Shown here: in pieces, positions 42,680-60,916 of the stretch
Layout of the letters: the number at the start of each line of letters is the position of its first letter
Position numbering within the stretch: position 1 is the first letter of the stretch
Notes under the pieces: generated by a model
The model's database searches: none
What the model saw: only the letters and a program-made list of their open reading frames with translations
What the model was told of the DNA's origin: nothing
DNA from: an uncultured Ignavibacteriota bacterium
GTDB lineage: Bacteria > Bacteroidota > Ignavibacteria > Palsa-1295
Length of the DNA: 64,000 nt
Assembly (NCBI GenBank): GCA_903900335.1
Contig: CAIUMP010000056.1
Coordinates: forward strand, 1-64,000
Reading direction: 5' to 3'
Translations under genes and position numbers: made by a program

Positions 42680-43861
42680 TTATGCGGCGATAGCGGGTTC
42701 TTCCGGCGTCGGTGGTTTCAGCAACGATTGCAACCGCTCGCCAATGGAGATGCGCGGCGCTCGTGGTAGCACTTCGATGTGTTTCGAAATATTTAGCAGT
42801 ATCCCAACGGCCGCGGCGCTAAAGATCATGCTTGTTCCGCCGTAGCTCACGAAGGGCATCGGGAGCCCTGTTACCGGCATGAGGCCGGCGTTGACGAAGG
42901 AGTTCACGATGGCGTAGATTGCGATGGTCATCGTGATTCCGAATGCAACATACCTGCCAAACGCGTCCGGCGCGTGTTTGGCGATCTGAATGCCGCGAAC
43001 GATGATAAATCCAAAGACAATAATAAGCAGTGCCGCACCGATGAAACCATACTCCTCGCCGATCACCGAATAGATAAAATCACCATACGACTCTGGCAGA
43101 AAGAACATGCTTTGCCTCGACTGCCCAATGCCAACCCCGAAAAGGCCTCCATTGCCGAATGCGATCATCGCCTGGTCGAGTTGATAGGTGACCTTATCCG
43201 TTTGCGATGTGTGATGACCTACGAAGGCCATCATACGCTGCACTCTGTAACTTGCCGTAAGTGCAAACACTCCGCCTCCCATCACCGCAAGCACCCCACA
43301 TGAGATCATATACTTGAGCGGCACCTGCGCAACGAACATGATCCCGAACGTTATCAGGAAGAGTACACTCGCAGTGGACATATTCGGCTGCTTCGCGATG
43401 AGTGCAGCGGCGGCCAGTGCCCAAAGAATTATCGGTAAGAAGGCTTTCTTGAAATCACCGATGATCTCCTGTTTGGCCGCACAGAGCGCCGCTACATGAA
43501 GCACCAACGCGAACTTCGCAAACTCCGCCGGTTGGAAACTAAGCGGCCCCAGCGCCAGCCAACGCCGCGCGCCAAGCTCTCGCGTTCCGATGACAAGCAC
43601 CAGCACAAGCAGCAGCAGGGACGAAAGCATGATCCACTTCGTCTGCTTCTCGAACTTATGATAATCGACCTTCGTGAAGAAGATCATTGCGACGAAGGAC
43701 AAGAACACCTTTTTCGCGTGGTTGAAGAGCATCGACTCGCTCGTCCCCATCTTCGTCGCGCTGAACGAGGCGCTCGCCGTATAAACGAACGCCAATGACG
43801 CGAGCAGAAGACCGGTCACGGTCAGGAAGAGGCTCAGGTCAGCGGTACGTTTTGGTTTCAT
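42680..43861 (-). CDS. ftsW: FtsW, SEDS-family septal peptidoglycan polymerase
   Basis: A ten-helix SEDS protein of 393 residues. Invariant segments present: SFQPAEFAKFALVLH, the loop GEEYGFIGAALLIIVFGFI, and PMPFVSYGGTSMI at the C-terminal side. The C-terminal tail is cytoplasmic. The first 30 residues (MKPKRTADLSLFLTVTGLLL and on to YTASASF) are closely copied by the gene just upstream; the DNA of 43785-43807 is repeated exactly at 44542-44564. Works with the PASTA-PBP encoded further upstream. Confidence 0.95.
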   Translation of the reverse strand: MKPKRTADLSLFLTVTGLLLASLAFVYTASASFSATKMGTSESMLFNHAKKVFLSFVAMIFFTKVDYHKFEKQTKWIMLSSLLLLVLVLVIGTRELGARRWLALGPLSFQPAEFAKFALVLHVAALCAAKQEIIGDFKKAFLPIILWALAAAALIAKQPNMSTASVLFLITFGIMFVAQVPLKYMISCGVLAVMGGGVFALTASYRVQRMMAFVGHHTSQTDKVTYQLDQAMIAFGNGGLFGVGIGQSRQSMFFLPESYGDFIYSVIGEEYGFIGAALLIIVFGFIIVRGIQIAKHAPDAFGRYVAFGITMTIAIYAIVNSFVNAGLMPVTGLPMPFVSYGGTSMIFSAAAVGILLNISKHIEVLPRAPRISIGERLQSLLKPPTPEEPAIAA

Positions 43862-43862
43862 C

Positions 43863-44612
43863 TTAACGGATTCTTATATTTCCTTTTCCATCGAATTGCA
43901 CTTCACCTTCCTTCTGGTCGACGGAGTAATTAACGATAATCGGGAACTTGCGAACGTCTTCAACACGAATTAAGTAAGCGGTTTCGTCCAAGCCAGTCAA
44001 TGCTTGTCCCGCATCCAAGCGATAGATTGTTGTATCGGTAGCCAACCGCTGCATCACACAGGTGACCAGCCCCGTCGTATTGTCCGAATTTGGCCGAATG
44101 CCGATCTCGATACCGAACTTCTGCGGTTCCAATCTCTTAACTCCTCGCAGTGGGTAATACAATTGATCCGCACCATCGCCTCCTAAAAAGACAAGCGCAC
44201 TATCGGTAACGAATATTGTTCGCGCGAACATGCCGTCCGATGGTTTGTACAGGTAGTAGGCATCTCCGTATTTCTCAACCGGATACCACTGTCCCGCAAG
44301 ATCCTGAATCTCTTTCGGGAAATGCTCCCGTTGCCCTTGTGAGATTTCGCTATCCATCAAATGCAATTGGTCCCACAAAGCGCTATCGTCTTCCGTTAAC
44401 GGCGCGTGGCGGAAAAACCAGGATTGGTCGAATTGCGAATAAAACAACGACGTTCGCGATGTGTCGATGAATATCATGTTGTTGCCGCCTGGCACTCGCT
44501 TCTTGAGGAAGACGGTATCTTGCGTGGCGGCGGAGGTTTGCACGAACGCCAATGACGCGAGCAGGAAGGCGGTGAAGGTCAGGAAGCGGCTCAAGCTAAT
44601 ATGTTTTGGCAT
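43863..44612 (-). CDS. Exported protein whose signal peptide is copied from ftsW
   Basis: A 249-residue protein between murD and ftsW. I start it at ATG 44612, which shares its A with the murD stop (TGATG); the frame allows a TTG one codon earlier. Residues 1-32 are a signal peptide (FLTFTAFLLASLAFVQTSAA) nearly the same as FtsW's first helix (FLTVTGLLLASLAFVYTASA). The mature part is polar and beta-rich (VPGGNNMIFIDTSRTSLFYSQ, GQWYPVEKYGDAYYLYKPSDGMF, IEIGIRPNSDNTTGLV) with no recognised family. It ends one base before ftsW. It probably acts in the periplasm and is co-expressed with cell wall synthesis. Confidence 0.6.
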   Translation of the reverse strand: MPKHISLSRFLTFTAFLLASLAFVQTSAATQDTVFLKKRVPGGNNMIFIDTSRTSLFYSQFDQSWFFRHAPLTEDDSALWDQLHLMDSEISQGQREHFPKEIQDLAGQWYPVEKYGDAYYLYKPSDGMFARTIFVTDSALVFLGGDGADQLYYPLRGVKRLEPQKFGIEIGIRPNSDNTTGLVTCVMQRLATDTTIYRLDAGQALTGLDETAYLIRVEDVRKFPIIVNYSVDQKEGEVQFDGKGNIRIR

Positions 44613-45967
44613 CAAATCAACGCATTAACCAATTCCTTAAACACCCTCCCTCGATGCTCATAATTATCAAACATATCGAAGCTTGCACAAGCCGGGGATA
44701 GCAACACAATGTCGCCAGGTGCAGCGGCTTCACGGGCAAGTCGAACCGCCTGTTCCATCGACATCCCCGCCGAATGAATTGGCTTCACATCTTTGAAGAA
44801 CTTCTCGATCTTCTCCGCGCCTCTACCGACAGTGACAATCGCCTTCACGTGTTCGGCGACTAGTTCGCGGATACGGGTGTAATCGTTGCCCTTGTCCTTG
44901 CCACCGGCGATGAGAATGATCGGTGCATTACCAAAACTGCCGAGTGCATAGAAGACGGAATCGACATTCGTTGCTTTCGAATCGTTGTAATACTTTACGC
45001 CATCTAACTCTCGCACGAATTCTATTCGGTGTTCGACGCCCTTGAAAGTTCGGAGTGTCTCCCGTATGGCCTCCCACTCCACACCCATCGAGCGCGTCAT
45101 GAGTGCAGCCGCCATCGCATTCATCAGATTGTGCGGGCCGGGAATGCCGATCTCCCTATGCTCCATCAGTACTTCCTTCTCGCGTCCGATGCGAAGCACA
45201 ATATTATCGCCCTGCAGAAAGGCGCCTTGCTTGAGTTCTTCCTTAATCGAGAATCCAAGTGTGCGCACGCTCACGGTCTCTGCCATATTGCGAACAGTCT
45301 CGTCATCGTAATTGAAGACGAAGACATCATGCCCTTTCTGGTTTTCGACGATACGAAACTTGGATTGCACGTAGCCTTCGTAATTCTTGTAGCGGTCAAG
45401 ATGGTCCGGCGTAATATTGAGAATGGCGGACACTTTTGGACGCAGCGTGTCTATCGTATCGAGTTGGAAACTGGATACTTCAAGCACTACAACGGACTTC
45501 TCACCTTTCGCCTTATCCACTATCTCTGAAAAGGCAATACCGATGTTACCCGCCACCTGGGTATTCCATCCCGCATGTTTGAATATTTCTCCGACGAGAG
45601 TCGTCGTCGTCGTTTTGCCGTTCGTACCGGTAATAGCCACGACGGGTACTTCGCATTGATCGAAAGCTATTTCGATCTCGCTCAGAATCTTGATGCCCTT
45701 TTCGCGAGCAAGCTTGACTATCGGCGCCTCCAGAGGGACACCCGGGCTAAGCACAACGTACTCTGCTTCAAGCACTCGATGCGTATTGTCGCCGAACTCA
45801 TACTCAACGCCGATGGCATCGAGCTCTGTGGCAACCTCATCGAACTTCTCCCTCTTCCCCATCTCGGAAAGAAATACCTTCGCTCGCCGCGTCTTTAGCA
45901 AACGCGCGACCGCGAGCCCGGACTTCCCGGCACCTAAGATCGAAAAGCGTTTACTTCGTACTTGCAT
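44612..45967 (-). CDS. murD: UDP-N-acetylmuramoylalanine-D-glutamate ligase MurD
   Basis: Adds D-glutamate to UDP-MurNAc-L-alanine. I start it at ATG 45967 (MQVRSKRFSILGAGKSGLAVARLL). The ATP loop is ITGTNGKTTTTTLVGEIF. ILNITPDHLDRYKNYEGYVQSK, YYNDSKATNVDSV and LIAGGKDKGNDYTRI are the usual motifs. 451 residues. An in-frame frame extends 59 codons upstream into a hairpin-rich spacer and the mraY gene, and is not part of the protein. Confidence 0.95.
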   Translation of the reverse strand: MQVRSKRFSILGAGKSGLAVARLLKTRRAKVFLSEMGKREKFDEVATELDAIGVEYEFGDNTHRVLEAEYVVLSPGVPLEAPIVKLAREKGIKILSEIEIAFDQCEVPVVAITGTNGKTTTTTLVGEIFKHAGWNTQVAGNIGIAFSEIVDKAKGEKSVVVLEVSSFQLDTIDTLRPKVSAILNITPDHLDRYKNYEGYVQSKFRIVENQKGHDVFVFNYDDETVRNMAETVSVRTLGFSIKEELKQGAFLQGDNIVLRIGREKEVLMEHREIGIPGPHNLMNAMAAALMTRSMGVEWEAIRETLRTFKGVEHRIEFVRELDGVKYYNDSKATNVDSVFYALGSFGNAPIILIAGGKDKGNDYTRIRELVAEHVKAIVTVGRGAEKIEKFFKDVKPIHSAGMSMEQAVRLAREAAAPGDIVLLSPACASFDMFDNYEHRGRVFKELVNALI

Positions 45968-45975
45968 AAATGTAG

Positions 45976-46048
45976 GGACGTGTTGCACACGTCCTAATCT
46001 TGATTTGGAAGGAAGATTGAAAGACAAGGAGACGTGCACCGCACGTCT
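45976..46048. repeat. Pair of small hairpins in the murD-mraY spacer
   Basis: Two 8-bp hairpins with three-base loops: 45976-45983 with 45987-45994 (GGACGTGT arm) and 46030-46037 with 46041-46048 (AGACGTGC arm). The GACGTG core is shared, so they may be one repeat unit in two copies. They lie between mraY and murD and could limit read-through or stabilise mRNA. Confidence 0.5.
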
Positions 46049-46050
46049 TA

Positions 46051-47178
46051 CTATCGAACTTTGAACGTGGTCAGCGCCAGAATCGCAAGAACGATGGCTA
46101 CGATATAGGCGCGCGTGACTATTTTGGTTTCGGCCCAGCCGCACAGCTCGAAGTGATGGTGGATCGGTGCCATGCGGAAGATGCGTCGGCCCTCGCCGTA
46201 ACGCTTGCGAGAGTATTTGAAGTAGCCAGTCTGCATGATTACGGAGATCGACTCCAAAAAGAAGATGCCGCCGACAATTGGCAACACGAATTCCTTTTTA
46301 CAGAGGATCATCATCGTCCCCATCGCTCCGCCAAGTGCGAGCGAACCGGTATCTCCCATAAACACTTGCGCCGGGTGCGCATTGTACCACAAAAACCCGA
46401 GCGACGCTCCAGCAAGCGCCGCGCAAAAAACAGTCAGCTCTCCTGCACCGCGAAGATACGGTATGTTCAGATAATCGCTCATCTGCAAGTTGCCGGAGAA
46501 GTATGCGATCGCACCGATCGGAATAAATGCAATGGCAACCGTGCCTGCACTCAAGCCGTCTAATCCATCTGTCAGGTTTACTGCATTCGACGTTGCCGTG
46601 ACGACAAAGATGACAAAGAGAACATACCAGACCGGTCCAAATTCAAAAACAAGATTCTTAAAGAAGGGGACGGTTGTGGCTGTCGTGATATCTACACCTG
46701 CGTATTTGAAAAGCCCTGGCGAGTACATAATTGTCAGCGCAATAATAAGGCCCACCGTCACTTGTCCTGCAATCTTGTATTTGCCAACCAGGCCCTTCTT
46801 TTTCTTCTTAACGACTTTCAAGTAGTCATCAAGAAATCCAACACCTCCGAGGAGAAGTGTCGCCACCAAGATCAGAATGATGAAGATGTTTCCGAGCTCT
46901 GCCCACAAGAGCGTGGGCACGATCAAAGAGAGCAAGATGATAATGCCACCCATCGTGGGCGTTCCAGCCTTTGCAAGATGTTGCTTTGGTGCCTCGACCT
47001 TACCTTGTTCTCCGATCTGAAGGGTCTTTAATCGCGAAATTATCTTTGGACCGCTCCATAAGCTGAGCGCAAGCGCGGTAATGGCCGATAGTGCGCTTCG
47101 GACAGTAAGGTACCGAAACAGATCGCCGCCCGGCGGGGCGAAAGTATGGTTGATCCAGTTGAATAGATAGTAGAACAT
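46051..47178 (-). CDS. mraY: MraY, phospho-MurNAc-pentapeptide transferase
   Basis: Makes lipid I from UDP-MurNAc-pentapeptide and undecaprenyl phosphate. I start it at ATG 47178 (MFYYLFNWINHTFAPPGGDLFRYLTVR), the standard N-terminus. Catalytic aspartates lie in GFLDDYLKVVKKKKKGL and NAVNLTDGLDGLSAG; the HHHFE loop reads APIHHHFELCGWAETKIV. Ten transmembrane segments, 375 residues, typical. A nested palindrome fills the spacer before it. Confidence 0.95.
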   Translation of the reverse strand: MFYYLFNWINHTFAPPGGDLFRYLTVRSALSAITALALSLWSGPKIISRLKTLQIGEQGKVEAPKQHLAKAGTPTMGGIIILLSLIVPTLLWAELGNIFIILILVATLLLGGVGFLDDYLKVVKKKKKGLVGKYKIAGQVTVGLIIALTIMYSPGLFKYAGVDITTATTVPFFKNLVFEFGPVWYVLFVIFVVTATSNAVNLTDGLDGLSAGTVAIAFIPIGAIAYFSGNLQMSDYLNIPYLRGAGELTVFCAALAGASLGFLWYNAHPAQVFMGDTGSLALGGAMGTMMILCKKEFVLPIVGGIFFLESISVIMQTGYFKYSRKRYGEGRRIFRMAPIHHHFELCGWAETKIVTRAYIVAIVLAILALTTFKVR

Positions 47179-59469: not shown

Positions 59470-60471
59470 ATGTACGGAAACGTATCCATTGAAGAGGATC
59501 CCAAATCCACGCAGGCGAGTAAGGCTGCGGCAATCGAAGAAGATCCGGTCAAGTTAGCCGAGTTCGAGGCGCGTATTGCCCGTGGCGAGAAGATCGAGCC
59601 GGATGACTGGATGCCGGCGGAGTATCGCCGTCAGGTGCTGCGCATGATCGAGCAGCACGCGCACTCGGAAATCATCGGCGCGCTGCCCGAAGGCACCTGG
59701 ATCACCCGCGCGCCAACGCTGCGCCGCAAACTTGCGCTCATCGCGAAAGTACAGGATGAGGTCGGGCACGGGCACTTGCTCTACTCCGCTGCCGAGACGC
59801 TCGGCAAAACGCGCGAGGCGATGATCAACGATCTCATCAGCGGCAAATCCAAGTACAGCAATATCTTCAACTACCCGGCGAAGACGTGGGCGGATATTGC
59901 CGTCATCGGATTTTTGGTCGATGCCGGTGCGATCGTCAATCAGCTTGCCAACGCGAAGGGAAGCTACGGGCCGTATTGCCGCGCACTCGAACGCATTTGT
60001 TACGAAGAGTCCTTTCATCTGAAGCAGGGCTATGATGCATTCGTCGCGCTTGCAACGGGCACGCCGACGCAGCGCGCGATGGCGCAGGACGCGCTGAACC
60101 GCTGGTGGTTTCCGCCGCTCATGCACTTCTTTGGTCCGCCGGACACGATCTCGGTCCACACCGAGAAGCTCATGCGCTGGAAAGTGAAGATGGCCTCGAA
60201 CGAGGAGATGCGCCAGGACTTCATGGAGCAGTACGTGCCGAAACTCTGGGAGCTTGGCATGACTCTCCCCGATCCCGCGCTCAAGAAAAACGAGGACGGT
60301 TCCTGGAATTACACCCAACCCGACTGGGACGAATTCTTCCGCGTCATCAATGGCGATGGCCCCTGCAACAAAGAGCGCCTTGCCGTCCGCCGCTACGCCG
60401 AAGAGAGTGGTCGTTGGGTGCGGGAGGCGTTGATGCAGGCGGGGAGGAAGCATGTGGTGCCGTACGCGTAA
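59470..60471 (+). CDS. paaA: Phenylacetyl-CoA 1,2-epoxidase subunit PaaA
   Basis: The catalytic di-iron subunit that, with PaaB-PaaC, epoxidises the ring of phenylacetyl-CoA. I start it at ATG 59470 ([10 protein letters not shown]) after AGAGAAAGAG. Metal-ligand helices: QHAHSEIIG (Glu67), [20 protein letters not shown] (Glu97, His100) and [12 protein letters not shown] (Glu180, His183). [19 protein letters not shown] and KHVVPYA form the C-terminus. 333 residues, typical. In other genomes paaB follows directly; here 2.85 kb separates them. Its last 45 bases are repeated at 60872-60916. Confidence 0.94.
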
Positions 60472-60820: not shown

Positions 60821-60916
60821 ATGGAATACGAAGCGAGAGAATCTAAAGAGACCGGCCGCTGGGTTCGCGAAGCGTTGATGCAGGCGGGGAGGAAGCATGT
60901 GGTGCCGTACGCGTAA
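60821..60916 (+). pseudogene. Duplicated 3' end of paaA
   Basis: Translation gives [20 protein letters not shown], then [11 protein letters not shown] and stop: the C-terminus of PaaA. Bases 60872-60916 equal 60427-60471 in all 45 positions, including the stop codon. Upstream of that block the coding sense is kept (TGRWVREA against SGRWVREA) but synonymous bases differ, so the two copies do not share one simple recent origin. It is the remnant of a second paaA 3' end or of a duplicated target. Confidence 0.8.

Follow-up and report, generated by a model that had tools for sequence, protein, structure and literature searches.

Background

In terminal reassortment, reportedly described by Stavrinides and colleagues in 2006 (cited in PMC2669295) for type III effectors, an N-terminal secretion signal is copied and becomes joined to an unrelated downstream domain. 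The locus analyzed in this work, the junction between murD and ftsW, resembles that process in that an N-terminal secretion signal would have been copied from one gene onto an unrelated domain. Two features set it apart: terminal reassortment concerns the signals of pathogen type III effectors, whereas at our locus an essential membrane protein of cell division acts as the donor and contributes a Sec-type helix, and the copying goes to the immediate neighbour.

A second related process is promoter capture by tandem duplication, known from experimental selections (Anderson and Roth 1978; Li and Bock 2019; both as presented in PMC11111574). In such cases a duplication that begins in one gene and ends in its neighbour places the body of the one behind the start of the other and can activate the transferred gene, which is the likeness to our locus; in contrast, what appears to be captured here is signal-coding sequence, and it is fixed in natural species, repeatedly. 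A third case comes from the Enterobacterales, where whole signal peptides were gained by N-terminal insertion and transposable elements were sought nearby and none was found (PMC5952966, in the part of the study drawn upon here). As at our locus, orthologues in that group differ by a complete signal peptide acquired at once; however, that part of the study names no donor, whereas the donor sequence and its place are identified here, and the cargo families described below already had signals of their own.

The gain or change of an export signal in one stroke has mostly been inferred from alignments, with the donor unidentified; at the murD-ftsW junction the donor, the breakpoints and the repeats of the event are visible, and the route by which some proteins gain export signals is readable directly in DNA. 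Our literature searches found no paper on the capture of a signal from ftsW or an adjacent gene by partial duplication, nor on recurrent capture at one junction. From the comparison of the junction among related genomes we conclude that recurrent signal-peptide capture, via partial duplication of the first transmembrane helix of ftsW, probably took place at this locus.

Results and discussion

The murD-ftsW junction

The window, i.e. the whole stretch of 64,000 nt that was analyzed, belongs to the 4.0-Mb genome of a little-known soil bacterium (G000); all the genomes compared are MAGs, one per species. It carries on the minus strand a cell-wall cluster with the order murD, gene X, ftsW and murG (Table 1). 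The overlap between murD and gene X is a single base (TGATG), and the end of gene X and the start of ftsW are one base apart. An in-frame TTG at 44615, one codon ahead of the gene X ATG, pairs with the ATG of ftsW in the alignment of the two genes.

Table 1 Coordinates of the features at the murD-ftsW junction (positions in the window) and of the paralogue of gene X
Feature	Position	Strand	Description
murD	44612..46144	(-)	Stop codon overlaps the gene X start; true start inside the listed ORF
Gene X	43863..44612	(-)	249 aa; start ATG at 44612
Gene X, residues 1-30			Putative signal, ftsW-derived
Gene X, residues 31-249			Predicted mature domain, undescribed exported family
Copied segment	44523..44626	(-)	Last murD bases, gene X start region and putative signal peptide (MPKHISLSRFLTFTAFLLASLAFVQTSAA)
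Donor segment	43766..43872	(-)	Junction bases and ftsW codons 1-32 (first transmembrane helix)
ftsW	42680..43861	(-)	PF01098, E 3e-93; donor gene, intact
C50 paralogue of gene X	L136:1501-2340		Own genome

The 5' end of gene X is copied DNA

The first-pass annotation of this DNA had pointed out 23 identical bases at the 5' ends of ftsW and gene X. The match is exact (43785-43807 and 44542-44564), and the flanking bases, which were described as close, place it within an ungapped direct repeat of 71 nt with 77% identity (43766-43836 and 44523-44593). Gapped local alignment lengthens the repeat to about 107 nt with one 3-nt indel, spanning the start codons and a few bases of the murD 3' end; the part ahead of the start codons, in which the tail of murD resembles the bases just before ftsW, has a shuffle P of 0.004 on its own. 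Both genes read through the repeat in the same frame, with a register offset of 2 residues, and the complete divergence that had been noted past the signal begins after about residue 30.

When the 133 nt of the ftsW 5' end were searched against the 4.0-Mb genome, they retrieved ftsW itself (E 1.5e-64) and the gene X copy (E 4.1e-11), and no further match above about 30 bits. Among the ORF starts of the window (n = 1256), gene X alone scored high (72 vs 30 or less, with the coding starts of ftsW and gene X excluded). The N-terminal peptide of gene X was also recoded synonymously, drawing on the codon usage of the window itself, and none of 5000 recodings reached the observed DNA score (mean 24, maximum 59); by this test, the DNA similarity between the two genes exceeds what their protein similarity requires. 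DNA-level and protein-level scans of 110 ftsW-hit loci (some genomes being counted by more than one record, and the internal starts of ftsW itself being removed at the protein level) revealed ftsW-like N-terminal copies in this genus and in no other.

Given the genome-wide E-value, the outcome of the recoding test and the confinement of N-terminal copies to the genus in these scans, the DNA was copied: the N-terminus of gene X is copied DNA and not the result of convergence, and the partial duplication of the ftsW 5' end put forward in the first-pass annotation is borne out. Signal peptides and first transmembrane helices do have a composition in common, from which two alike hydrophobic N-termini with 23 bases identical by chance might be expected; the recoding test rules out chance or convergence as the source of the repeat, and with an E-value of 4e-11 and a second and a third case in sister species (see below) we assign practically no probability to it.

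The mature domain of gene X

A search for the gene in relatives, as had been proposed in that annotation, gave no match in 60 of them by sequence search alone. No Pfam family was matched by gene X at E ≤ 1, and hence not LprI (PF07007) either; Pfam, NCBIfam and PDB sequence searches returned nothing convincing for gene X or for the family that it defines (family X). In a phylum-wide search of 395 genomes, three distant full-length homologues were detected (G414, G399 and G130), all of them with lipoprotein-type N-termini, and the profile-profile comparison (hhalign) of the mature part of gene X with the distant lipoprotein homologues gave a probability of 96.7 (E 4e-10, 186 columns). The family X profile also led to a paralogue in the same genome, on contig C50 (E 1e-11). 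The signal of this paralogue, MKVVIVVRILALVAFGICAEKLHAQ, is ordinary and unrelated to the ftsW-derived signal, and its mature part starts with GDTVFLVKE vs QDTVFLKKR in gene X. A lipobox (Cys after the signal) is present in the L122-L124 proteins and missing from both gene X and the paralogue (L136), so that it does not define the whole family. Among the other species of the genus and family that were searched, family X was not found, and the mature domain of gene X is without a close orthologue.

Since the distant lipoprotein homologues and the paralogue carry signals unrelated to that of gene X, the signal of an existing exported domain was exchanged, and in gene X, judging from these profile matches, an old domain of an exported family has received a new signal. 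The birth of an exported protein, as first proposed, is for this reason not supported, as only the signal is new. It had also been reasoned that an unrelated signal peptide in homologues, together with a similarity due to chance, would speak against the duplication: unrelated signals do occur in the paralogue and in the distant homologues, the similarity is not fortuitous, and the combination points to a swap. De novo gene birth is ruled out by the distant homologues and the same-genome paralogue.

The members of family X (the C50 paralogue, L122-L124 and L139) are exported proteins or lipoproteins of about 240-280 aa from Bacteroidota for which there is no Pfam or NCBIfam model. The AlphaFold prediction of gene X from its single sequence had a pLDDT of 39 and was left out of the fold searches.

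Donor and age of the copy

The N-terminus of FtsW, MKPxxTADxSLFxTVTGLLLAS.AFVYTASASFS, is conserved across the family. Because related genera in which gene X is absent show this conservation too, ftsW is the donor, in agreement with the first proposal. Over a 52-nt core, 7 sites separate the gene X copy from its own ftsW and 12-17 separate it from the ftsW of any of six congeners, and the ftsW genes of G000 and its nearest congener, G001, differ at 8. For each congener, 9-12 diagnostic sites are common only to the copy and its own ftsW, and 1-2 only to the copy and the congener; for a ratio of 9 to 1 the one-sided sign test gives about 0.01. In the ML trees, the G000 copy joins the ftsW of G000 with moderate support (73) and the copy of G004 joins G004 (81), and the support for the placement of the G005 copy is 27. 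Given that the nearest match of the gene X copy is its own ftsW and that the ML placement agrees, the copy most likely postdates the split among the species of the genus, yet is not very recent; the age estimate that had been suggested thus falls within the genus.

The junction in sister species

In four further species of the family the murD-ftsW junction measures 6 to 96 nt; within the genus it is hypervariable, with a length of 137 to 1261 nt. Partial duplications of the ftsW 5' end are present at the junction in three of the seven species (G000, G004 and G005), and in the remaining four it has no ftsW copy. Its content includes gene X in G000, LprI proteins in G001, G005 and G006, small membrane proteins in G002 and G005, a Y1-type transposase with local repeats in G004, and only a hairpin in G003. 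The 137-nt gap of G003 (L004 / L048) consists for the most part of a single long, imperfect inverted repeat similar to sequence in the G005 gap.

In G005, the LprI protein starts with MKPKRTADLSLFLTVTGLLL, which corresponds to ftsW codons 1-20, and 59 of 61 nt are identical to the ftsW of that species; past this start the protein has its own c-region (ending AVA↓Q) and its own mature part. This cargo matches PF07007 (E 4e-15) and is unrelated to gene X. Its best relative, which is encoded elsewhere in G008 (a member of another genus), shares 44% identity with it in the mature part, and the signal of this relative, MNKYLCLLLLVLSSGLLKAQ, is an ordinary one. PF07007 is likewise matched by the junction genes of G001 and G006, whose signals are other than ftsW-derived; the cargo of gene X stands outside this family. 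The two coding fusions, those of G000 and G005, therefore carry different cargoes, each from an exported family and each joined in frame near the signal/mature boundary. The junction LprI genes (lysozyme-inhibitor family; L003, L007 and L008 in G001, G005 and G006, respectively) are only 29-43% identical to one another, vs more than 80% for ftsW, consistent with either repeated acquisition or very fast change.

The third copy, in G004, is part of a tandem repeat with an offset of 162 nt that comprises flank and ftsW codons 1-12; it has an early stop and no cargo, i.e. it has decayed, and it carries 40 nt of the upstream repeat besides the breakpoint at codon 12. The transposase gene found between murD and ftsW in this species (L005 / L032), together with local repeats, is Y1/IS200-like (PF01797, E 4.5e-23). 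A genome-wide repeat family was not supported as the cause in G004, given that the flank repeat occurs only three times, always at the junction locus.

The breakpoints are thus located at about codon 32 and the murD end in G000, at codon 20 in G005 and at codon 12 in G004. Because they differ, as do the cargoes, separate events are the simplest reading of the three duplications. All the copies lie at one junction and conversion between close repeats is common, and a history could be envisaged in which the ftsW 5' end was duplicated once in the ancestor of the genus and then underwent gene conversion with ftsW in each lineage, with loss elsewhere; the weak placement of the G005 copy with G005 on the tree would fit this as well. 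The disparity of the breakpoints, cargoes that are unrelated or absent, and the lack of any copy in four of the seven species make this history improbable.

A candidate mechanism for signal capture

In the capture that we favour for gene X, which makes this gene a natural chimera, a segment of about 107 nt formed by the murD-ftsW junction and FtsW helix 1 was duplicated, and the upstream copy came to precede, in the same reading frame, the mature part of an already existing family X protein, displacing its prior signal. The c-region has changed since then from VYTASASFS to VQTSAATQD and now presents signal peptidase I with a potential small-x-small site, SAA↓TQ. Comparable but separate events at this junction supplied the LprI protein of G005 with its signal and left the decaying, cargo-less copy in G004.

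In the FtsW/RodA/SpoVE family, helix 1 inserts in the N-in orientation, like a signal peptide. With this topology, a positive n-region and a hydrophobic core, FtsW helix 1 could serve as a signal with no need for redesign. These properties are kept at the N-terminus of gene X, namely three K/R/H residues followed by a hydrophobic h-region (KD12 maximum 2.32), and the small-x-small motif SAA↓TQ, a putative signal peptidase I site, is seen in the sequence. The reuse of the ftsW helix as an N-terminal signal, as first proposed, is supported at this level, and we infer that gene X is exported by Sec and cleaved.

The copied helix might instead stay uncleaved and tie the mature domain to the inner membrane, perhaps in the vicinity of the divisome, since helix 1 is uncleaved in native FtsW and the distant members of family X are lipoproteins, i.e. 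membrane-tethered. We hold such an anchor to be unlikely, given the change of the gene X c-region to SAA↓TQ, the canonical AVA↓Q site of the LprI cargo that is kept in the G005 fusion, and the ordinary, cleavable-looking signal of the C50 paralogue. It could also be proposed that what has been kept is the start region of ftsW, for translation initiation or regulation, which would preserve the translation of ftsW and would make the signal a by-product. Insertions between murD and ftsW must indeed keep ftsW translated, and the gene upstream of ftsW extends up to its start in both G000 and G005 (with a 1-nt gap or an ATGA overlap); nonetheless, the fact that both coding fusions are in frame to domains of exported families, near the signal boundary, and that the G004 copy, which lacks such a cargo, has decayed leaves little room for this proposal.

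Returning to signal capture, a benefit may be presumed, and two recombination routes could have led to the fusion. In the first one, a tandem duplication would run from a point past the signal of the resident gene to a point in ftsW, and the chimera would form at the join. In the second, the cargo would be inserted at the compact junction and about 60-110 nt of flank would be duplicated. The likeness of the bases preceding ftsW to the murD tail in G000 weakly favours the second, insertion with flank duplication.

The capture at this junction suggests that the first transmembrane helix of housekeeping membrane proteins serves as a permanent reservoir from which signal peptides can be drawn. The junction also offers, in closely related species, a locus for studying by which route the recombination proceeded and how a membrane helix is tuned to become a cleavable signal.

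A second junction with duplicated flank

A similar arrangement occurs elsewhere in the window. A paaA-like gene (PF05138) has its final 71 nt (60401-60471) repeated 445 nt downstream (60846-60916) with 90% identity, the 3' part being fully identical, and the two repeats flank an ORF of 97 aa with a weak, below-cut-off match to MazE antitoxin. The congeners have no such repeat and show other content after paaA. The geometry resembles that of the ftsW case, in that a small gene is enclosed by two duplicates of the neighbouring gene's end; therefore, a general route of insertion with flank duplication is worth considering. As a tentative proposal, to which we give somewhat less than even weight, small cargo genes would enter operon junctions in this genus through a recombination process with duplication of 60-110 nt of the end of the flanking gene; where the neighbour is ftsW, ready-made export signals would be donated repeatedly, and an operon position beside a membrane-protein gene would act as a signal donor.
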